Source: Geminicoccus roseus DSM 18922 (GTDB taxonomy: Bacteria; Pseudomonadota; Alphaproteobacteria; Geminicoccales; Geminicoccaceae). Taken from it: a DNA stretch of 64,000 bases. Numbering within the stretch: position 1 is the first letter of the stretch; every line of letters starts with the position of its first letter. The stretch covers positions 1,822,196-1,886,195 of the forward strand of contig NZ_KE386572.1 in assembly GCF_000427665.1 (NCBI RefSeq). Reading direction: 5' to 3'. The translations under genes were made by a program, and so were the position numbers. Shown here piece after piece: positions 8,874-17,203 of the stretch. The notes beneath the pieces were generated by a model. It was not told where the DNA came from. It searched no databases and was given only the letters and a program-made list of their open reading frames with translations.

Positions 8874-9692
8874 GCTTATCCCCAATCACCGCACCGCCAA
8901 CACGGAGGTAGCATGTGCAATAGAACAGTGTCGACCTGCTGGGATGTGTCGGCAGTACAGCCGTCGCCCGAGCCGCGGGCGCTCAGAACCGGATAATCGG
9001 AAGTTCCTAATAGTTTGAGTCACCCCCTCACGACTCCGTCACGGCGCTGTGAAGACGCTTGTCATGTCGTGGCAGCCGGAAGCTTCGTCGAACCCTACAA
9101 AAGACAAATTTGCACCTAGAGATCCCGTGGATATAAGACAATCATATGTTCCACTATTCCTTAGAAATCTAAAAATGATTCAAGGCAAGATCCTGCTTTA
9201 CCGGAAGTAAAAACAAAATATTAAATGATTAATGATAGTTAATGTACTTTCCGTTTTGGTGAATCATCGATCTAGAACAATAATCTATTGCATTCATTGT
9301 CCATGAAGATTATATTTGGTGTGTAAGGGCAGTAATACCGAGCAATAATAACAGTTGCTGTCACCCAAAGAGGCAAGTGATCTTATATTTTAGTGTTCCG
9401 GGCGGGTGGTTCGCTGTATTGTTGCTTGAAAGAACTTTTTCCATGTATTCTTAATGAATTGCATGGAGTTCAGCTGAAAGAATGTGCCGGCATCACACGA
9501 TGTCTATACATCAAGATGGTCGCGCGCAGATCGAGTTCGGCTTGGTCGGAACAAAAAGATCCAGACGTCTGCCCAACTCAATTAATCTGTACGTTCAGGG
9601 TAACCTGACGCAGATAGGATCAATATGGATCTTTTTGATGGCTGAATGTGGTGCTGGTTGTGATTGCTGGTAATGGAGCTAGGGAGAGAGAG
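8874..9692. other. 819-base intergenic region with AT-rich island
   Basis: This gap separates the minus-strand AcrAB-like operon from the plus-strand secreted protein at 9693. Up to about 9060 composition is ordinary. From about 9100 to 9500 it turns strikingly AT-rich with A/T runs, quite unlike the GC-rich flanks. Short open frames in 9393-9673 have no ribosome-binding site, no recognisable motif and overlap each other, so I do not call them. The divergent promoters must lie here, but I could not place a convincing -35/-10 pair. Confidence 0.6.
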
Positions 9693-10262
9693 ATGTCGGG
9701 TAAGCTTTTGCTGGGCTTGGCAGTGTCCGCTGCCATTGGGTTGGGTGTCTCTGCCATGCCCGCTCAGGCGGACAATGGACCCAACTATCATCCGCCAAAG
9801 CATTATAAGCCCTATTACAAGGTGACCAAGGGCTGGCTGGACAAGCGGTACTGCCAGGCGGTTGTCGAGAATGCAGTAAAGCAGAAAGTTGTCGGCGCCG
9901 CACATCTCAAAGTCATCACCAAAGACTATTATGATAAGCACGACGAATCTGACAAAAATAAATATCACGATTACAAGCATAAATACCCAAAGAAGGAAAA
10001 GGTGACGATAATCTGCAGGTTCGCCCCGTATCGTCCGATCCTTGTTGGCTATGTCAAGGATAGCGTGGAATTCCCCTGCTACCAAAAAAACATCGTCAAG
10101 GGATATCCTAATTATACTGAAGATAGTTTTGCCGAGATCGATACCAAGAAGGTCAAATACAAGGGTCGGTATTACAACTTCATCAAGAAGGTTCTCCTGA
10201 AGTGCACCTTCGAAAAGCCGTACGAGCCGCGGCACAACTACCCGAGGAAGGATAAGGATTGA
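9693..10262 (+). CDS. Secreted Lys/Tyr/His-rich protein of unknown function
   Basis: No family recognised. I start at the ATG at 9693 because AGGGAGAGAG lies just ahead; a GTG at 9648 is in frame but has no such site. The 189-residue product begins with a clear signal peptide (MSGKLLLGLAVSAAIGLG... cleaved after MPAQA, about residue 26). The mature part is unusually basic and aromatic: HYKPYYKVTKGWLDKRY near the start, then clusters such as KDYYDKHDESDKNKYHDYKH. Several Cys residues (CQAVV, ICRFA, PCYQ, KCTFE) could form disulfides. GC content is lower than in neighbouring genes and it sits after an AT-rich island, which fits foreign origin or fast evolution. Likely periplasmic or extracellular; role unknown. 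Confidence 0.8.
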   Translation: MSGKLLLGLAVSAAIGLGVSAMPAQADNGPNYHPPKHYKPYYKVTKGWLDKRYCQAVVENAVKQKVVGAAHLKVITKDYYDKHDESDKNKYHDYKHKYPKKEKVTIICRFAPYRPILVGYVKDSVEFPCYQKNIVKGYPNYTEDSFAEIDTKKVKYKGRYYNFIKKVLLKCTFEKPYEPRHNYPRKDKD

Positions 10263-10511: not shown

Positions 10512-13142
10512 ATGGAACCAACGATCTTCGGCTATATCCGGCGTCACAGCTGGAAAGAGCAGTTGATCGTCCTCGCCCTGACGCTGGCGTCGTTCCCTTT
10601 CCTGTACTGGTCGCTCGATCTTCCTAAAACAATCGTCAATGACGCCTTGGGGCGAGCCGACGAAGCTCATGACTTCTATGGCATTCACCTGGACAAGTTC
10701 GATTATCTTTTTGCGCTTTGCGGGCTCTTTCTTGTCCTTGTGCTGATCAACGGCATTTTTAAGTACATTATCAACGTCTATGCTGGCTTGGTTGCAGAGC
10801 GGATGCTGCGCCGGCTCCGTTACGACCTTTACTCGCAGATCCTGCGCTTTCCCCTTTCGCATATGAAGCGGGTCAGCACGGGCGAGATCGTGCAGATGAT
10901 CAATGCCGAGACCGAGGCGCTCGGCGGCTATATCGGCACGGCCCTGCAGATCCCCGCCTACCAGGGCGGGACCCTGCTGGTGATCCTGACCTTCATCTTC
11001 ATCCAGGATCCGGTGCTGGGCTTGGCAGCCGTCGCGCTCTACCCGATCCAGGCCTATTTCATCCCAAAACTGCAGCGCCGGGTGAATCTGCTCGGCAAGG
11101 AGCGGATCCGCCAGGTGCGGCGGCTGGCTGACCGGATCGCGGAGACGGTTGGCGGGGTGCGCGACCTGCGCGCCAATGATGCCACCCAATATGAGCGGGC
11201 GCGGATGAGCAAGGAGCTCAGCGTCGTCTACTACATCCGGTATCGGATATATATTCTCAAATTCATGATCAAGTTCATTAACAATTTCTTCGCGCAGATC
11301 GCGCCGTTCTTCTTCTTTTCCATAGGCGGCTACCTTGTCTTGACAGGGAACATCTCGCTTGGCGCAATCGTGGCTGTCCTTTCTGCCCATAAAGACCTCT
11401 CAAGTCCTTGGCGGGAACTCCTGGATTATTATCAGCTCATGCAGGATGTCCGGATCAAGTATGATCAGGTCGTTTCGCAGTTCCAGCCGCGTGGCCAGAT
11501 CGACGAGCGCCGGCAACTCGACGAGCCTTCCGGTGACCTGAAGTTCGAGGGCGAGATCGAGGCGCGGGGACTGGTGGTGCGTGACGACGAGGGCGATGCT
11601 CTCCTGGACAACATCACCCTCCGGCTTCCGCTCCCTTCGACCGTGGCGGTCCTGGGGCCGGGTGGCGGCGGACGAGAAGAGCTGACCATGACGTTGGCCG
11701 GCCTGATCCCGCCCGACAGCGGCCGCGTGACGGTAGGCGGCCAGGATCTGGCGCCGTTGCCGGATTCGGTGATCGGCCGCAGGATCGCGTTCGTCGGCTT
11801 CCCACCCTTCATCGGGTCGGACACGATCGAGGACAACCTGCTGATGGGTCTGCGCCATCGGCCGGTCCGCCCGTACCAGCCGCCACCGGAAGAGGAAAAG
11901 CGTCACAAGCGCGAGCTGATGGACACCGCGCGTGCCGGCAACAGCCCCTTCGAGTTCCAGGCTGACTGGATCGACTGGGCCGCCGCGGGTGTCACCGAGG
12001 AGAAGGAGCAGCTTCCGGCCCTGGTACGCATCCTCAAGGTCGTGCAACTCGACGCCGACGTCTACGGCCTAGGCCTGCGGGGCACGATCCGCCACGATCG
12101 CTTCGGCGACCTGCGCGACAAGCTCCTGGACGTCCGCATGGAGATGCGCAAGCGGCTGGAGGGCGACGAGTCGCTGGATCGCCTGGTCGAGCGGTTCGAT
12201 CCCGACCGCTATAACAGCAACGCGACGCTCGCCGAGAACCTGCTGTTCGGTGCACCGCGCGATGATCAGTTCCAGATCGACCGGCTGGCCGAGCACAGTT
12301 ATGTCCGCAAGGTCCTCGATCAGGTCGGGATCGCCGAGGAGCTGCGGCGGGTCGGTCTGGCGCTCGCCCGCACCATGGTCGAACTGTTCGCCGACCTGCC
12401 GCCGGATCACGAGTTCTATCAGCAGTTCAGTTTCATCCGTGCTGACGACCTGCCGGACTACCAGACTCTGGTCGCCCGGGCGGACCCGAACGAGTTGGAC
12501 CGGCTGGACGAGTCAGATCGCCAGCGCCTGCTGGCACTGCCATTCAAGCTGATCAACACCCGCCACCGGCTCGGCCTGATCACGAAGGAGCTGGAGGACA
12601 AGCTGGTGGAGGCCCGCAAGGTCTTCCGGCAGAACCTCCCCGCTGATCTTGCCGCAAGTGTCGCCTTCTTCGAGCCCGATGCCTACAACGACGCGGCCTC
12701 GGTCCAGGACAACGTGCTTTTCGGCAAGATCGCCTACGGCGCAGCCCAGGCACCGGTCCGGATCGCCGCCCTGATCCGCCAGCTGCTCGAGGAAGCCGGT
12801 CTGCGCGAGCGGATCATCGAGGTCGGCCTGTCCTTCCCGTGCGGACCTGGTGGGGGGCGCCTGAGCCTGGCGCAGCGCCAGAAGCTGGCGCTTGCCCGGG
12901 CGCTCCTGCGTCGCCCCGAGGTGCTGATTCTGCACGAGGCTGCGACCGCGATCGACGCCTCGGAGCAGAACGAGTTCGTCAGGGGCATCCTGGAAGCAAT
13001 GTCCGGCCGGACCGTGATATGGTCGCTGGCGCGGGCGGATCTCGTCGGCCTGTTCGAGCAGACGATCATGCTGGACAAGGGCAAGGTGATCGACGCCGCC
13101 AAGCAGACGCAGGATGCCCAGCCGCAGGAGGCCGAGGCATGA
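10512..13142 (+). CDS. ABC exporter-like protein with degenerate, insertion-bearing nucleotide-binding domain
   Basis: An 876-residue half-transporter. Residues about 15-320 are an ABC exporter membrane domain (about six helices, with RLRYDLYSQILRFPLSHMKR and STGEIVQMINAETE typical of exporters). The nucleotide-binding domain starts near 345 but its catalytic motifs are altered: Walker A position reads LGPGGGGREELT at about 381-392 (no Lys, no Ser/Thr), the Q-loop region reads FVGFPPFIGS (no Gln), Walker B reads VLILHEAATAID (Asp to His, Glu kept) and the H-loop position lies in VIWSLARAD (no His). The signature is partly kept as LSLAQRQ near 785. Nearly 300 residues are inserted between Q-loop and signature, within which the motif following the Q-loop (DNLLMG) recurs twice as ENLLFG and DNVLFG. 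First gene of a coupled set with a cyclic-nucleotide sensor and a cyclase. Probably not an ordinary ATP-hydrolysing exporter; regulatory or structural use of the fold is inference. Confidence 0.88.
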   Translation: MEPTIFGYIRRHSWKEQLIVLALTLASFPFLYWSLDLPKTIVNDALGRADEAHDFYGIHLDKFDYLFALCGLFLVLVLINGIFKYIINVYAGLVAERMLRRLRYDLYSQILRFPLSHMKRVSTGEIVQMINAETEALGGYIGTALQIPAYQGGTLLVILTFIFIQDPVLGLAAVALYPIQAYFIPKLQRRVNLLGKERIRQVRRLADRIAETVGGVRDLRANDATQYERARMSKELSVVYYIRYRIYILKFMIKFINNFFAQIAPFFFFSIGGYLVLTGNISLGAIVAVLSAHKDLSSPWRELLDYYQLMQDVRIKYDQVVSQFQPRGQIDERRQLDEPSGDLKFEGEIEARGLVVRDDEGDALLDNITLRLPLPSTVAVLGPGGGGREELTMTLAGLIPPDSGRVTVGGQDLAPLPDSVIGRRIAFVGFPPFIGSDTIEDNLLMGLRHRPVRPYQPPPEEEKRHKRELMDTARAGNSPFEFQADWIDWAAAGVTEEKEQLPALVRILKVVQLDADVYGLGLRGTIRHDRFGDLRDKLLDVRMEMRKRLEGDESLDRLVERFDPDRYNSNATLAENLLFGAPRDDQFQIDRLAEHSYVRKVLDQVGIAEELRRVGLALARTMVELFADLPPDHEFYQQFSFIRADDLPDYQTLVARADPNELDRLDESDRQRLLALPFKLINTRHRLGLITKELEDKLVEARKVFRQNLPADLAASVAFFEPDAYNDAASVQDNVLFGKIAYGAAQAPVRIAALIRQLLEEAGLRERIIEVGLSFPCGPGGGRLSLAQRQKLALARALLRRPEVLILHEAATAIDASEQNEFVRGILEAMSGRTVIWSLARADLVGLFEQTIMLDKGKVIDAAKQTQDAQPQEAEA

Positions 13143-13174
13143 GCATGGTTGCCGGCAAGAGGAGGATGCGTTGA
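13139..13174 (+). other. Possible 11-codon coupling mini-frame
   Basis: An ATG at 13139 overlaps the stop of the ABC-like gene (ATGA), runs 11 codons (MSMVAGKRRMR) and stops at 13172-13174, where its TGA overlaps the TTG start of the next gene (TTGA). It carries the AGGAGG-like site for that gene. It may simply be a spacer, but the double stop/start overlap would carry ribosomes from the ABC-like gene into the sensor gene. Too short to call as a protein. Confidence 0.35.
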
Positions 13175-13650
13175 GCCTGCAAGACGACGTGGACGTGCTG
13201 CGCGCGATTCCGCTGTTCGGCAAGATCGAGCCGGCAAAGCTCAAGCTCCTGGCCTTCACCAGCGAGCACCTGGAATTCGAGAAGGGCGAGACCCTTTTCA
13301 AGCAGGGGGATCCTGGGGACGCCGCGTACATCATCCTGGACGGCACCGCTGACATCCTGGTCGACACGCCGCGTGGGCCGGTCGCGGTGGCCCACCTGGT
13401 GCGCAATGACGTGGTCGGCGAGATCGCGATCCTCTGCGATGTGCCACGCACGGCGACCGTCGTCGCCGGCAGCAGGCTGGCCACCCTGCGGGTCGGCAAG
13501 GATGCGTTCTTCAACCTGGTCACCCAGTTCCCGCAGGTGGGAGTCGGGATCATGTCGGAACTGGCGCATCGCCTGCACCAGACCACGGTCAACCTGACCG
13601 AGGCGTCCACCAAGCTTCGCCAACTCGAACAGGAGGGGGGGCACGCTTGA
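13171..13650 (+). CDS. Stand-alone cyclic nucleotide-binding (CNB) domain protein
   Basis: A 159-residue protein that is almost entirely one CRP/PKA-type cyclic nucleotide-binding domain. It opens with LRAIPLFGKIEPAKLKLLA, has the beta-roll core (EKGETLFKQGDPGDAAYIIL) and the phosphate-binding cassette VGEIAILCDVPRTATVV with the ligand-contacting Glu84 and Arg93, so it should bind cAMP or cGMP. There is no DNA-binding helix-turn-helix; the C-terminus is a short helix (TEASTKLRQLEQEG). I use the TTG start at 13171 behind AAGAGGAGG; upstream in-frame ATG would overlap the previous gene deeply. Lying between an ABC-like protein and a cyclase, it probably transmits cyclic nucleotide levels to one of them. 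Confidence 0.88.
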   Translation: MSLQDDVDVLRAIPLFGKIEPAKLKLLAFTSEHLEFEKGETLFKQGDPGDAAYIILDGTADILVDTPRGPVAVAHLVRNDVVGEIAILCDVPRTATVVAGSRLATLRVGKDAFFNLVTQFPQVGVGIMSELAHRLHQTTVNLTEASTKLRQLEQEGGHA

Positions 13651-14864
13651 GCGTTCCTTCCACCATGCTCTGGCCGCTGCGGCGCAGCGCTGCGCTGGAC
13701 TGGTTCGTCCGCTTCAACCACGAGGAGCCTTTCCTCGACGATCTGTTTGCCCGGCTTTGCGAGAAGCTGGTCGACGATGGCCTGCCGGTGACACGGGCGA
13801 CGCTGCATGCCCGGGGCCTGCACCCCCAGTTCATCGGAGCGGCGATGATCTGGCGCAATGACAGCCGGCCGGTCCAGATGCGGATGATCACAAGGGCCGA
13901 CGTCGAGAGCGCCCAGTTCCAGAACAGCCCGATCAAGGCCCTATACGAGGGCGCCGACGGCGTGCGCCAGCGCCTCGACCTGCCGACGACCGGGCCGGAA
14001 TACGGGATTTATGGGGATCTGCGCGCGGCCGGGTTCACCGACTATGTCGCTCGGCCCTTGGTCGCCAGCGATGCGCGGCGCCATACCGTGACCTTCGCGA
14101 CCAACCGTGCCGGCGGATTTTCCACCGAGGACCTGTTCACCCTGGACGACCTGCTGCCGTTGCTGTCCATGGCGGCGGAAGCGCGCATCGGCCGGCGGAT
14201 CACCAAGACCATTCTGGAAACCTATGTGGGCAAGGAGGCCGGGCTGCAGATCCTGGCCGGCAACATCCGCCGTGGCGCGCACGAGGTGATCGATGCCGCC
14301 GTCTGGATCGCGGATCTCGCCCATTTTTCCGAACTGGCCGATCATGCACCGAGGGACGAGGTGCTGGGAGTCCTCGACACCTTCTTCGATGCGATGGGCA
14401 AGCCGATCCAGAGCCATGGCGGCGAGATCCTGAAATTCATGGGTGACGCGGTGATGTGCGTCTTCCGGCTCGACCGGCCGGAGGCGGGCAAGCGGGCCTT
14501 GATGGCAGCCAGAGAGGCTTATCGCGCCATGGAAGCCATCAACCAGGAGCGACGCGCCAACGGCTCGGAACCGCTGGGCTATGGCCTGGGGCTGCATCTG
14601 GGCGAGGTCATTTTCGGCAATATCGGCACCGAGAGCCGTCTGGACTTCACCGTGATCGGGCCGGCCGTGAACGAGGCGGCGCGCCTGGAGCGGCTGTCGC
14701 GCACGCTCGGCCGCCATGTGGTGATCTCCGATGCGTTCGCCGCCCATGTCGGGCGCCAGGAACTGATCCCGCTCGGTCAGCACCAGCTGCGCGGCCGTGA
14801 CATACCGATCGAACTTTTCGGGCTGCCCGAGGAAGAAGGGAATCCGTGGTCCTACGTCGTCTGA
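13647..14864 (+). CDS. Class III adenylate cyclase with N-terminal sensory region
   Basis: A 405-residue cytoplasmic protein. Residues about 1-190 are a soluble N-terminal region of the type seen in many rhizobial-type cyclases (AGFTDYVARPLVASD). The catalytic domain spans about 215-365. Metal-binding Asp223 is in VWIADLAHFS and Asp267 in FMGDAVMCVF; Lys263 and Asp333 occupy the base-selecting positions for ATP; Asn342 and Arg346 in VNEAARLE are the transition-state residues. It should therefore make cAMP. The TTG start at 13647 overlaps the preceding stop (TTGA) behind AGGAGGGG, so it is coupled to the CNB gene. Alternative: an ATG six codons in. The substrate assignment follows from family knowledge, not from any test. 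Confidence 0.92.
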   Translation: MSVPSTMLWPLRRSAALDWFVRFNHEEPFLDDLFARLCEKLVDDGLPVTRATLHARGLHPQFIGAAMIWRNDSRPVQMRMITRADVESAQFQNSPIKALYEGADGVRQRLDLPTTGPEYGIYGDLRAAGFTDYVARPLVASDARRHTVTFATNRAGGFSTEDLFTLDDLLPLLSMAAEARIGRRITKTILETYVGKEAGLQILAGNIRRGAHEVIDAAVWIADLAHFSELADHAPRDEVLGVLDTFFDAMGKPIQSHGGEILKFMGDAVMCVFRLDRPEAGKRALMAAREAYRAMEAINQERRANGSEPLGYGLGLHLGEVIFGNIGTESRLDFTVIGPAVNEAARLERLSRTLGRHVVISDAFAAHVGRQELIPLGQHQLRGRDIPIELFGLPEEEGNPWSYVV

Positions 14865-15568
14865 TTCGCGGGCTGGGCTATGACCTGGTCAAGCGTGGCA
14901 AGACCCGCGATGTCCACGATCAACTGGTCGGCGCCATGCACATGAACGCGATCGATGCGGTCCTGGACGTGGGCGCCAACGAGGGGCAGTACGGCCGACG
15001 CCTGCGCCGGCATGGCTGGTACGGCCCGATCGTCAGCTTCGAGCCCCAGACGGACGTCCATGCCCGATTGATGGAGGTGGCGGGCCGCGACCGGGACTGG
15101 ATCGTGGCGCCTCCCATGGCGCTGGGTGCCGAGGATGGGGTCGCGGTCCTGGAATGCTCCGCGGAAAGCGACATGAGCTCGCTCCTGCCGCAGAACCCGA
15201 CGCTGCAGAAGATCTCCCCCAGTTCGGCGGTGACCGCCAGCGTCGAGGTGCCCCTGCACAGGCTGGACGGGCTGCCGCAGCTCTGCAGCGAGCGATTTTC
15301 CAGGATGCTGCTCAAGGTCGACGTTCAGGGCAGCGAGATGGATGTCCTGGAAGGTGCCGCCGGAATTCTTGACCGGATCGTCGGGATCCAACTGGAGACT
15401 GCGCTCGTACCGCTCTATGTGGGAGAGCAAGGCTTCCGCACCGTCCTGGATCGTCTTGACGATCTGGGCTTTGACTTGCACCTGCTGATCCCGGGCTATT
15501 ACGAGCGCAAGCTTGGCCGTCAACTTCAGGTCGACGTGGTGGCGTTCCGGGATGGCAGGGCGACCTGA
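14846..15568 (+). CDS. FkbM family methyltransferase
   Basis: A 240-residue S-adenosylmethionine-dependent methyltransferase of the FkbM family. The SAM-binding motif I is LDVGANEGQYGRRL near residues 36-49; an acidic post-I residue occurs in IVSFEPQTDVHARL; the family-typical LLKVDVQGSEMDVLEGA follows at about 155-171, then IQLETALVPLYVGE. GTG start at 14846 lies inside the cyclase gene (19-base overlap) behind GGAAGAAGGG, so translation is coupled. FkbM enzymes usually O-methylate sugars or small molecules; the substrate here is unknown. Its overlap suggests it belongs to the same transcription unit as the cyclase cassette. Confidence 0.88.
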   Translation: MVLRRLIRGLGYDLVKRGKTRDVHDQLVGAMHMNAIDAVLDVGANEGQYGRRLRRHGWYGPIVSFEPQTDVHARLMEVAGRDRDWIVAPPMALGAEDGVAVLECSAESDMSSLLPQNPTLQKISPSSAVTASVEVPLHRLDGLPQLCSERFSRMLLKVDVQGSEMDVLEGAAGILDRIVGIQLETALVPLYVGEQGFRTVLDRLDDLGFDLHLLIPGYYERKLGRQLQVDVVAFRDGRAT

Positions 15569-15662
15569 TCTCTGGCCAGCAAGATAGGGATCATTTCGCC
15601 CCGTTGCAGTAGGATCGGCCACGGGCCCACCAGGCGCAAGCCGACCAACCGGATGAGTAGCA

Positions 15663-16352
15663 TTGTCGACATTCAGCGTTCCGCCGATCCATCCCAAGGG
15701 TTGGCCCTTCGTAGCCGGCTTCTTCGTCATTGCGGTGATGCTCGGCTTTGTCTGGGGACCCCTGTTCTGGATCGGCCTGATCCTGACCCTGTGGTGCGCC
15801 TATTTCTTCCGTGATCCGGCACGGACGACGCCCGTCGATCCATGGCTGGTTACCAGCCCGGCGGACGGGCTGGTTGTCCAGGTCGGCATGCGCAAGCCGC
15901 CGCCGGAACTGGGCGTGGACCTGGAGCCACGCTGCTGCATCGGCATCTTCATGAATGTGTTCGACGTCCATGTGAACCGCACGCCGGTGGCCGGCACGAT
16001 CACCCGACGTCTCTATCATGCAGGCAAATTCCTCAACGCCAGCCTCGACAAGGCGTCGGACGAGAACGAACGGATGTCCTGGGCGGTGCGTCCGCACGGC
16101 TATGCCGAGGAAGTCTTCCTGGTGCAGATCGCCGGGCTGGTGGCGCGGCGCATCGTGCCGTTCGTGGGAGTGGGCTCCAGCGTCGAGGCCGGCGAACGGG
16201 TCGGCCTGATCCGATTCGGTAGCCGCTGCGACATCTACCTGCCGCCCGGCCTGATCCCCAGGGTGCTGGTCGGGCAGCGCTGCATCGCCGGTGAGACGGT
16301 CCTGGCCGATGGCGCCGCGACGTACCCAGCCCGGAGCGGAAGGGTCAGCTGA
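15663..16352 (+). CDS. psd: Phosphatidylserine decarboxylase proenzyme (short type)
   Basis: Converts phosphatidylserine to phosphatidylethanolamine at the inner membrane. The 229-residue product is the short bacterial form. N-terminal hydrophobic stretches (FVAGFFVIAVMLGFVWGPLFW) anchor it; core motifs are YFFRDPARTTP, SPADGLVVQVG and MNVFDVHVNRTP. Self-cleavage to give the pyruvoyl group should occur between Gly186 and Ser187 in IRFGSRCDIYLP. The only usable start is TTG at 15663 because a stop lies in frame just upstream, and GGATGAG precedes it. The stop shares one base with the pssA start, a classic psd-pssA pair. Function is confident. Confidence 0.96.
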   Translation: MSTFSVPPIHPKGWPFVAGFFVIAVMLGFVWGPLFWIGLILTLWCAYFFRDPARTTPVDPWLVTSPADGLVVQVGMRKPPPELGVDLEPRCCIGIFMNVFDVHVNRTPVAGTITRRLYHAGKFLNASLDKASDENERMSWAVRPHGYAEEVFLVQIAGLVARRIVPFVGVGSSVEAGERVGLIRFGSRCDIYLPPGLIPRVLVGQRCIAGETVLADGAATYPARSGRVS

Positions 16353-17203
16353 TGTTCAAGAGTCGCCGGATCCGCCGGGTCCGTAAGCCCCTGGGTGCGC
16401 GGCCGTTCTACGTCTTCGTGCCGAACCTGATCACGATCCTGTCCTTGTGCGCGGGTTTCACTGCCATCCGGTACGCGGCCGACCAGCGCTGGGAGTTGGC
16501 GGTCACGCTGATCGCGGCGGCGGTGGTGCTGGATGGACTGGACGGCCGCGCCGCACGGATGCTGAACGTGACGTCCAAGCTTGGCGCGGAGCTGGATAGC
16601 CTGGCCGACTCGCTGAGCTTCGGCATCGCTCCGGCGATGATCCTCTACTGGTGGTCCCTCCATGCCGTGCAGGGCCTCGGCCTGGCCATCGCGCTGTTGC
16701 TGGCGGTGTGCTGCGCATTGCGGCTGGCCCGTTTCAACACCCAGCTCGACGAACCGGAGCGCCCCCGCTGGACGATGTTCTTCTTCCAGGGCATCCCGGC
16801 TCCGGGCGGGGCGGTGATCGCGCTGACCCCGATCATGGTGAGCTTCGTGGTGGACAGCACCGTCTTCCGCCACTGGTCGGTGGTGGCCGTGGTTACCGTG
16901 TTCACTGCGCTGATGATGGTCAGCCGGGTGCCGACCTTCTCCATCAAGAAGTTCCGGATCGAGCCCGGCTGGCAGTTGCCTGCCCTGGTGGCCGGTGCCT
17001 TCGTAGCGGCCCTGTTCTTCGCGATGCCCTGGGCAACGATTGCGGGAGCCTGCGCCATCTATGTGCTCACGATCCCGTTCAGTATCGCCGCCGCGCGCAG
17101 GTTCCAGCGGCGTGATGGGCACGCAGTGCCGGCCCCTGAGGCGGCTGCGACCGATCAGGACGGCCAGATCGTGGACATGCCGCGGCGCAACCCGCACCCC
17201 TAG
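16352..17203 (+). CDS. pssA: CDP-diacylglycerol--serine O-phosphatidyltransferase
   Basis: Makes phosphatidylserine from CDP-diacylglycerol and serine, feeding Psd encoded immediately upstream. The 283-residue integral membrane protein has the CDP-alcohol phosphotransferase motif DG..AR...G...D...D at residues 64-86 (DGRAARMLNVTSKLGAELD), with Asp64, Asp82 and Asp86 as metal or catalytic residues. About eight hydrophobic segments follow (for example AVVTVFTALMMV, AGAFVAALFFAMPW). The start overlaps the psd stop by one base. The C-terminal 30 residues are hydrophilic. Confidence 0.95.
   Translation: MFKSRRIRRVRKPLGARPFYVFVPNLITILSLCAGFTAIRYAADQRWELAVTLIAAAVVLDGLDGRAARMLNVTSKLGAELDSLADSLSFGIAPAMILYWWSLHAVQGLGLAIALLLAVCCALRLARFNTQLDEPERPRWTMFFFQGIPAPGGAVIALTPIMVSFVVDSTVFRHWSVVAVVTVFTALMMVSRVPTFSIKKFRIEPGWQLPALVAGAFVAALFFAMPWATIAGACAIYVLTIPFSIAAARRFQRRDGHAVPAPEAAATDQDGQIVDMPRRNPHP

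Follow-up and report, generated by a model that had tools for sequence, protein, structure and literature searches.

The ATP-binding cassette (ABC) fold serves as a regulator or gate in SUR and CFTR, yet the nucleotide sites of these proteins are kept, and cyclic-nucleotide-binding (CNB) domains switch membrane proteins in cyclic-nucleotide-gated channels such as MlotiK1, which does not have the ABC fold. HetC of Nostoc is an ABC exporter joined to a cyclic nucleotide monophosphate (cNMP)-type domain that is required for HetC function (PMC10986499, in the parts considered here). It is also the only near case, among the matches listed, to a second-messenger-gated exporter with a degenerate ATP site (a pseudo-ABC exporter), of which no description was found in the mainly openly accessible literature; nothing was found in the literature on COG4671. 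Here we analyze a 64,000-nt stretch of the Geminicoccus roseus DSM 18922 genome (the window; contig NZ_KE386572.1, positions 1,822,196 to 1,886,195), in which open reading frame (ORF) calling and Pfam searches resolved a three-gene set at positions 10512-14864 (+) into an ABC protein, then a CNB protein, then a class III cyclase. None of the examined relatives of this ABC protein, here called the pseudo-ABC protein, keeps a complete set of ATP-site residues, and the pseudo-ABC and CNB genes have a glycosyltransferase (GT) cluster as a more constant third partner than the cyclase. We give roughly even odds (about 0.5) to the pseudo-ABC protein being a membrane subunit of a surface-glycan system that lacks ATPase activity and is under cyclic-nucleotide control, with the cyclase supplying the messenger.

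The ATP site and fold of the pseudo-ABC protein

When aligned to a canonical exporter nucleotide-binding domain (NBD), the window protein lacks the Walker A Lys and Ser/Thr, the Q-loop Gln, the Walker B Asp and the H-loop His, just as the first-pass annotation of this DNA, made from the letters alone, had noticed. Among the Walker A Lys and Ser/Thr, the Walker B Asp and Glu, the LSGGQ signature and the H-loop His, the Walker B Glu is the sole residue kept (Table 1). The corresponding residues of 93 homologues were read off a MAFFT alignment from which L145, with a divergent transmembrane domain (TMD), and the duplicate L045 were left out. Not one of the 93 keeps all five residues (Lys, Ser/Thr, Walker B Asp, Walker B Glu and His), nor does any of 17 further, mostly divergent homologues. 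A Lys is found at the Walker A Lys position (388) in 43 of the 93 and a Ser/Thr at position 389 in 8, this residue being lost in the other 85 with Glu or Asp as the usual replacement, and the two are present together in 2; the Walker B Asp is kept in 22/93, the Walker B Glu in 45/93 and the H-loop His in 26/93. Counted per homologue, none of the five residues is kept in 14 proteins, one in 29, two in 37, three in 11 and four in 2. Control exporters of the MsbA-like kind, by comparison, keep all five in 31/31. These controls were the best MsbA-like match in each of 30 family-bearing genomes plus the window genome's own, selected as the proteins that match a canonical exporter best; 28 of the 31 are in the alignment, and the other three failed the first motif filter and were inspected separately. 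The idea that the motif losses are conserved thus stands in that no fully canonical homologue turned up among those examined, but not for Lys388, which is still present in nearly half of the family. The gene order is also present beyond the window genome.

Mean pairwise identity within the pseudo-ABC family is 52% in the TMD and 35-38% in the NBD halves (93 homologues), the reverse of what the control exporters show, with 35% in the TMD and 60% in the NBD (28 proteins). The nearest named relatives of the window protein are those of Geminicoccus flavidas (86% identity) and G. harenae (85%), and against two Geminicoccus species the ratio of nonsynonymous to synonymous substitution rates (dN/dS) is 0.12-0.14 over the full length and 0.20-0.21 over the NBD with its insert. 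Because these ratios indicate purifying selection, the loss of the ABC motifs is not a matter of chance or decay, and a pseudogene was rejected on motif conservation together with dN/dS. From these sequence comparisons we infer that the protein is under selection, though not as an ATPase. Conserved basic and polar residues on the presumed TM5 helix (R243, K250, K254, N257, N258 and Q262) would suit an anionic, lipid-linked substrate.

Pfam searches matched the protein to ABC_membrane and, in two separate stretches, to ABC_tran, and NCBIfam searches returned many exporter families, the 25 listed all lying far below their cut-offs. The AlphaFold2 model (83-row alignment; pLDDT 86.3, pTM 0.84) was aligned by VIA-align to TM287/288 chain A (6quz_A) with a Z of 26.9 and a root-mean-square deviation (rmsd) of 3.5 over 434 residues, and to the ComA NBD over 235/239 residues with a Z of 27.4 and an rmsd of 2.4. 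Pfam, model and VIA-align thus all place an exporter TMD and NBD fold in one chain. The ComA alignment spans the model range 343-876, so the NBD fold is complete but interrupted by an insert of about 280 residues, a partly repeated element that is absent from the first-pass annotation. Modelled alone, the segment of aa 445-760 gave a pLDDT of 92.4. The insert had no Foldseek match at E<=0.001, and its best VIA-align row reached a Z of 4.2 over 77 residues; the top rows are ABC proteins and may merely echo the helical part of an NBD, and the missing structural match does not prove a new fold. HHalign paired aa 532-618 with aa 692-775 at a probability of 99 (E 3.3e-18), and the protein has three copies of an (E/D)N(L/V)L(F/M)G-type motif, whose Asn (N442, N576 and N734) is invariant in the 83 rows.

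The CNB partner and the cyclase

In 91/95 loci a CNB domain is encoded directly downstream of the ABC gene or fused to the C-terminus of its product, and in 13/95 the two form one polypeptide. This count, based on distance and strand, includes the duplicate L045 and a CNB gene that is partial at a contig end (L118), and L041, L044 and L068, whose CNB ORF opens far upstream, were admitted by hand. The CNB is adjacent or fused in 13 of 16 further loci, two of which (L212 and L213) have fusions. The fused state can be mapped onto a FastTree tree of 110 ABC proteins with 2 changes, a number that leaves out seven rows without an adjacent CNB. Three of the four CNB-less loci among the 95 have a close CNB homologue elsewhere in the genome (G117 and G229, 60% identity each; G311, 47%). 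In the fourth, G138, searches found neither a CNB relative (E<=1e-8) nor a PF00211 cyclase (E<=1e-6); this 2.0 Mb genome (locus L136) nonetheless retains pseudo-ABC and GT genes, and is perhaps a natural uncoupling of the switch proposed below.

The phosphate-binding cassette of the CNB domain has its Arg in 91/91 and its Glu in 84/91 homologous domains. Pfam gives cNMP_binding only for the 159-aa CNB protein, and no helix-turn-helix DNA-binding domain was found in it; the first-pass annotation was therefore right to describe a CNB protein that lacks a DNA-binding domain and keeps its key residues. The cyclic-nucleotide-binding domain itself is the trait of CRP/FNR proteins that is present (Pfam, PDB relatives), and plasmid records label the homologues either 'cyclic nucleotide-binding domain-containing protein' or 'Crp/Fnr family transcriptional regulator'. 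The further suggestion that a non-hydrolysing ABC fold is read by this protein is borne out, as far as sequence can speak to it, by the conserved motif loss, the conserved pair and the fusions.

Overlapping starts had been proposed for both genes downstream of the ABC gene. The cyclase start, a TTG, does overlap the CNB stop by 4 nt, but the CNB ORF starts 29 nt past the ABC stop in the two nearest homologues (L039 and L040), which makes the TTG at 13171 the best start here; an ATG at 13114, if used, would overlap the ABC gene.

In class III cyclases two Asp residues serve the metals and a Lys/Asp pair the base, as in ATP cyclases, together with an Asn and an Arg. The window cyclase keeps all of these in a residue alignment and can be called intact and ATP-type, as first described; no Pfam family matched its N-terminal region. 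Complete Geminicoccaceae cyclases keep the catalytic set, except that L068 and L074 have Ala in place of the Asn, and the cyclases near the pair outside Geminicoccaceae vary at the base-specifying positions. A class III cyclase lies beside the ABC-CNB pair in 21/23 Geminicoccaceae loci, which were assigned by family code and record titles, versus 12/87 other loci, which are not independent of one another. The rule used for adjacency, same strand and within 3 kb, misses L073 (a partial gene is present at a contig end) and L059. The cyclase is thus a neighbour of the pair in some lineages only, and the first-pass picture of a self-contained three-gene module is not supported in that form. Over 60 hand-picked genomes, in which the family-negative ones are smaller on average, the median number of PF00211 matches is 10 with the family (n=40) versus 1 without (n=20), or 9.0 (n=23) versus 1.5 (n=8) in genomes of 3-5 Mb; at least one match is present in 39/40 versus 14/20, and at least 10 in 21/40 of the family-bearing genomes.

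Table 1. Features of the three-gene set and the gene that follows it, in window coordinates.
Feature	Position	Strand	Basis
Pseudo-ABC protein, 876 aa; type-IV exporter TMD and degenerate NBD with large insert	10512..13142	+	ORF, Pfam, AlphaFold2 model
Transmembrane domain (aa 1-330), best conserved part	10512..11501	+	Mean pairwise identity
Degenerate Walker A GPGGGGRE (aa 382-389): R388, E389, no Lys, no Ser/Thr	11655..11678	+	MAFFT alignment; alignment to canonical exporter NBD
Q-loop position: Phe430 replaces Gln	11799..11801	+	Alignment to canonical NBD
Helical insert (approximately aa 450-730) that separates the Q-loop region from the signature	11859..12701	+	Model, alignment
Internal repeat copy 1, aa 532-618, FDPDRYN..AENLLFG	12105..12365	+	HHalign
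Internal repeat copy 2, aa 692-775, FEPDAYN..QDNVLFG, extends into NBD C-half	12585..12836	+	HHalign
Altered ABC signature LSLAQRQ (aa 784-790)	12861..12881	+	Alignment
Degenerate Walker B LILHEA (aa 805-810): His808 replaces Asp, Glu809 kept	12924..12941	+	Alignment
H-loop position: Ala840 replaces His	13029..13031	+	Alignment
Stand-alone CNB protein, 159 aa; alternative ATG at 13114	13171..13650	+	Pfam cNMP_binding only; start from L039/L040 comparison
Phosphate-binding cassette GEIAILCDVPRTATVVA	13417..13467	+	Homologous-domain alignment
Class III cyclase, 405 aa, ATP-type residues	13647..14864	+	Pfam Guanylate_cyc; residue alignment
FkbM-family methyltransferase; start overlaps cyclase end	14846..15568	+	Pfam

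After the cyclase, positions 14846-17203 hold FkbM methyltransferase, phosphatidylserine decarboxylase and CDP-alcohol phosphatidyltransferase genes, a run of neighbour clusters that recurs in several other Geminicoccaceae loci. Upstream of the ABC gene, a 204-aa ORF without a Pfam match (9648-10262) belongs to a neighbour cluster made up of three Geminicoccus loci only.

The glycosyltransferase cluster and the Sinorhizobium meliloti PPP region

Neighbour clustering and Pfam searches revealed, in many lineages, a divergent block of GT28-like, GT4, GT4, histidine phosphatase and GT28-like genes, and in many loci a Methyltransf_17 gene follows the CNB gene. GT28 is present in 49/110 fetched loci and immediately divergent in 41/110. 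In a sample of 385 genomes of the class, the same set being used for the ABC, GT28 and CNB searches, matches were found in 131, 127 and 133 genomes, respectively. Both ABC and GT28 occur in 124 of them, ABC only in 7, GT28 only in 3 and neither in 251, an overlap that is uncorrected for phylogeny; for ABC and CNB the corresponding figures are 125, 6, 8 and 246. Among the rows listed, the families f16, f52 and f103 are concordant, having genomes with both ABC and GT28 beside genomes with neither. A sample of 398 genomes of the phylum, for which the share of other classes is not stated, gave 31 matching genomes, all 31 in the window's class.

The GT cluster went unseen in the first-pass annotation because it is unlinked to the pseudo-ABC gene in the window genome: the block lies outside the window at G000:C5:5235474-5245571 (locus L226), in the order importer substrate-binding protein and ATPase, GT28b, phosphatase, GT4b, GT4a and GT28a, the importer being of family-5. 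The CNB gene can also stand at the cluster by itself. In G117 and G329 it is directly divergent from GT28 with the ABC gene elsewhere, the same arrangement is found by coordinates in G229, G320, G397, G240, G186 and G253, and in G055 the CNB gene is divergent from GT28 in a genome in which no ABC match was found. A family-5 (Opp-like) importer shares the locus with the pseudo-ABC gene in L146, L150, L151, L048, L049, L051, L204, L205, L218, L219 and L221; its substrate could be a glycan breakdown product.

The family is carried on plasmids as well, with 144 records from Rhizobium, 80 from Sinorhizobium and others from elsewhere (262 in total, all below 60% identity). On plasmid p42e of Rhizobium etli CFN 42 the order is cyclase, importer ATPase, substrate-binding protein, two permeases, GT28, GT4, GT28-like, pseudo-ABC and CNB. 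In S. meliloti RCAM1750, a cyclase, a Polysacc_lyase-domain protein, the importer, GT28, GT4 and a GT28-like gene split over two ORFs are followed by a methyltransferase on the other strand, pseudo-ABC, CNB and FkbM. Azospirillum B510 encodes a fused pseudo-ABC-CNB protein, then the importer and GT28. The FkbM gene after the CNB gene in Sinorhizobium may be compared with the FkbM gene after the cyclase in the window. A 'hypothetical' protein next to the cyclase at L219:2100-3068 is a Polysacc_lyase (PF14099) match. On pSymB of S. meliloti 1021 (L225:29685-32436) the pseudo-ABC ORF, a single ORF in RCAM1750, is split in two frames, which may reflect an error in the sequence or a true lesion.

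As described in the parts of PMC10128002 considered here, an uncharacterised surface polysaccharide that protects against phazolicin (phazolicin-protecting polysaccharide, PPP) requires nine genes of the smb21252-smb21271 interval, and phazolicin tolerance is lower in mutants of smb21252, labelled a putative glycosyltransferase, and smb21265, labelled a glycosyltransferase family protein. The same source has cyaA depleted in the PPP screen and states that cAMP is reported to regulate genes potentially involved. Seven of the nine PPP genes are upregulated during Myxococcus predation (PMC10315480, in the part considered). When the genes of RCAM1750 are counted with GT28 as smb21265, GT4 becomes smb21252, pseudo-ABC smb21269, CNB smb21270 and FkbM smb21271, the last of these being the end of the published PPP range; if the count is shifted by two genes, both named positions are still occupied by glycosyltransferases, and pseudo-ABC and CNB still lie within that range. 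This suggests that the S. meliloti pseudo-ABC/CNB block falls within the published PPP region smb21252-smb21271. In the main text of PMC10128002, as far as considered, 'cyclic nucleotide', 'smb21269' and 'smb21270' occur 0 times, no dead ABC protein is discussed, and lower phazolicin tolerance is reported for no ABC or CNB gene mutant. The first-pass remark that no such system had been described therefore has to be narrowed: by gene count the block falls in a published region, but the text on that region is without the dead ABC protein. PMC5539429 contained none of the sought gene terms.

A proposed control unit, its alternatives and its known relatives

It is the altered ATP site, the conserved TMD, the conserved cassette, the recurrent cyclase neighbours and the close association with the glycan block that lead us to favour a cyclic-nucleotide-controlled glycan subunit. 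The coupling of the pseudo-ABC, CNB and glycan genes is well supported by the comparisons above, and the mechanism might run as follows. The pseudo-ABC protein would be a pseudo-exporter that retains the membrane fold of an exporter and a cytosolic part shaped like an NBD but no longer hydrolyses ATP and has probably lost Mg-ATP binding too, making no use of ATP in vivo, and its control would have passed to a cyclic nucleotide, presumably cAMP rather than cGMP, read by the CNB protein. The latter would touch the cytosolic side of the pseudo-ABC protein directly even when unfused, and would be its C-terminal domain in some lineages. Together the pair would be the unit that controls, at the membrane, a conserved surface-glycan system of alphaproteobacteria consisting of GT28a-GT4-GT4-histidine phosphatase-GT28b, a family-5 substrate-binding importer and often an S-adenosylmethionine (SAM) methyltransferase. 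The messenger would come from a class III cyclase, encoded in the same operon in Geminicoccaceae and elsewhere in the genome in most others. The nucleotide-loaded CNB would likely close or open the NBD pair and so switch the membrane part, which would then pass, hold or license a lipid-linked or nascent glycan.

Several observations weigh against this proposal. Proteins of the related genomes L140, L212 and L213 keep GxxGxGKS and the Walker B Asp-Glu, without the signature or the His, so some family members may bind ATP, and Lys388 and the H-loop His are retained in the 43 and 26 homologues counted above. The loci L199, L200 and L201, a divergent subgroup, have no adjacent CNB gene (this concerns the locus neighbourhood only, the genomes not having been searched). 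The cassette reads Arg-Thr in 82/91 domains, a pair associated with cGMP in eukaryotic CNB domains, and given this conserved Thr cGMP is a possible ligand. As to the glycan link, the Fisher values for the ABC/GT28 co-occurrence ignore shared ancestry and are an overlap measure only, and among the rows listed f26, f43, f71 and f105 hold genomes with just one of the two, some of these genomes being incomplete. The smb tags were inferred by counting genes, and the S. meliloti 1021 record used carries no tags. Finally, Clr targets have been placed in the nodP2-smb21248 cluster (PMC5498481), and the main text of that paper, as far as considered, is without any smb2126x or smb2127x and so gives no support for Clr control of this block.

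We think it unlikely that the protein instead belongs to a heterodimeric exporter of the TmrAB or TM287/288 kind, in which it would be the degenerate half, an unlinked canonical half-exporter would provide the ATP site and the CNB would merely tune it. The fold match to TM287/288 would suit such a partner, as would the 77 ABC matches in the window genome, its own locus included, but known degenerate half-exporters keep Walker A, and here its Ser/Thr is lost in most of the family. In the 110 loci, whose flanks are often short, the control-exporter TMD profile has just one match outside the family, a weak one (L155, 576 aa; E 5.4e-6); the remaining ORFs found with a Walker A are importer ATPases or are without such a membrane part. 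No better a prospect is an ordinary exporter with odd motifs that still binds and slowly hydrolyses ATP, with the cyclic nucleotide as an extra regulator. The absence of any examined homologue with all five residues speaks against it, even though the NBD fold is whole and L140, L212 and L213 keep the Walker A Lys-Ser, and an ordinary active exporter was set aside on motif conservation.

Less probable again is the first-pass version itself, a stand-alone cAMP module of cyclase, CNB and ABC gate to which the glycan link would be incidental. Such a module would fit the tight triad of Geminicoccaceae, and cyclases with other base-specifying residues do adjoin the pair in some of the 12/87 other loci, but the pair closely co-occurs with the GT cluster and is often physically linked to it, and the CNB gene alone can sit there. 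The original observation is confirmed and its interpretation partly supported, now as a two-part switch of pseudo-ABC and CNB that serves a glycan locus. A Pycsar-like anti-phage system of a cyclase and a CNB-bearing membrane effector is very improbable and was set aside, as the PADLOC matches (PycC models to the cyclase, best 9e-31; PycTIR to the CNB domain, 1.1e-16) are at domain level only, the Lys/Asp pair of ATP cyclases is present in the cyclase, the 3-kb rule finds no cyclase next to the ABC-CNB pair in 75/87 loci outside Geminicoccaceae, and GT28 is found in 124/131 ABC-bearing genomes.

If the cyclic-nucleotide-controlled glycan subunit is real, an ABC exporter fold would work without ATP under the control of a second messenger, so that the gating of the fold is separated from its motor in a natural test system. 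It would also provide a direct, non-transcriptional route from cyclic nucleotides to surface polysaccharide in alphaproteobacteria, where the targets of such cyclases are mostly unknown, and would single out two genes within the PPP region of S. meliloti (smb tags inferred) as its control unit. With somewhat less than an even chance in our estimation, the family may further represent receptors in which the exporter fold has swapped ATP for a cyclic nucleotide, that is, an ATP-independent, cNMP-gated membrane protein that switches surface-glycan production post-translationally; such a receptor would be widespread in alphaproteobacteria and, in the fused lineages, a single polypeptide.

Among known proteins, the SUR2 fold matches the pseudo-ABC model in VIA-align. 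We take MsbA2 of S. meliloti to be another locus, smb21191, and its identity with the pseudo-ABC protein was dropped on this locus and not on a sequence comparison. MsbA2 is alike in being an ABC exporter encoded on pSymB and linked to glycosyltransferases and to a polysaccharide of unknown nature (PMC12239276, in the part considered). By gene-order count the S. meliloti PPP region is alike in its GT28, GT4, importer, cyclase, pseudo-ABC, CNB and FkbM genes; in the parts of PMC10128002 considered, PPP is a putative polysaccharide barrier found by transposon sequencing (Tn-seq), the polymer is uncharacterised, and the pseudo-ABC and CNB genes are not discussed. In HetC the cNMP domain is N-terminal and accompanied by a C39 peptidase, function depends on the ATPase residue, and the reported assays showed binding of ppGpp but none of cAMP (PMC10986499, in the parts considered), whereas the pseudo-ABC protein has its CNB separate or C-terminal, no peptidase by Pfam, and altered ATPase residues. 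The type-IV ABC exporters MsbA, Sav1866, TM287/288 and PCAT1 share both the membrane fold and the NBD fold; unlike them, the pseudo-ABC protein has an altered Walker A and B, Q-loop, signature and His, carries the insert of about 280 residues, and is more conserved in its TMD than in its NBD.

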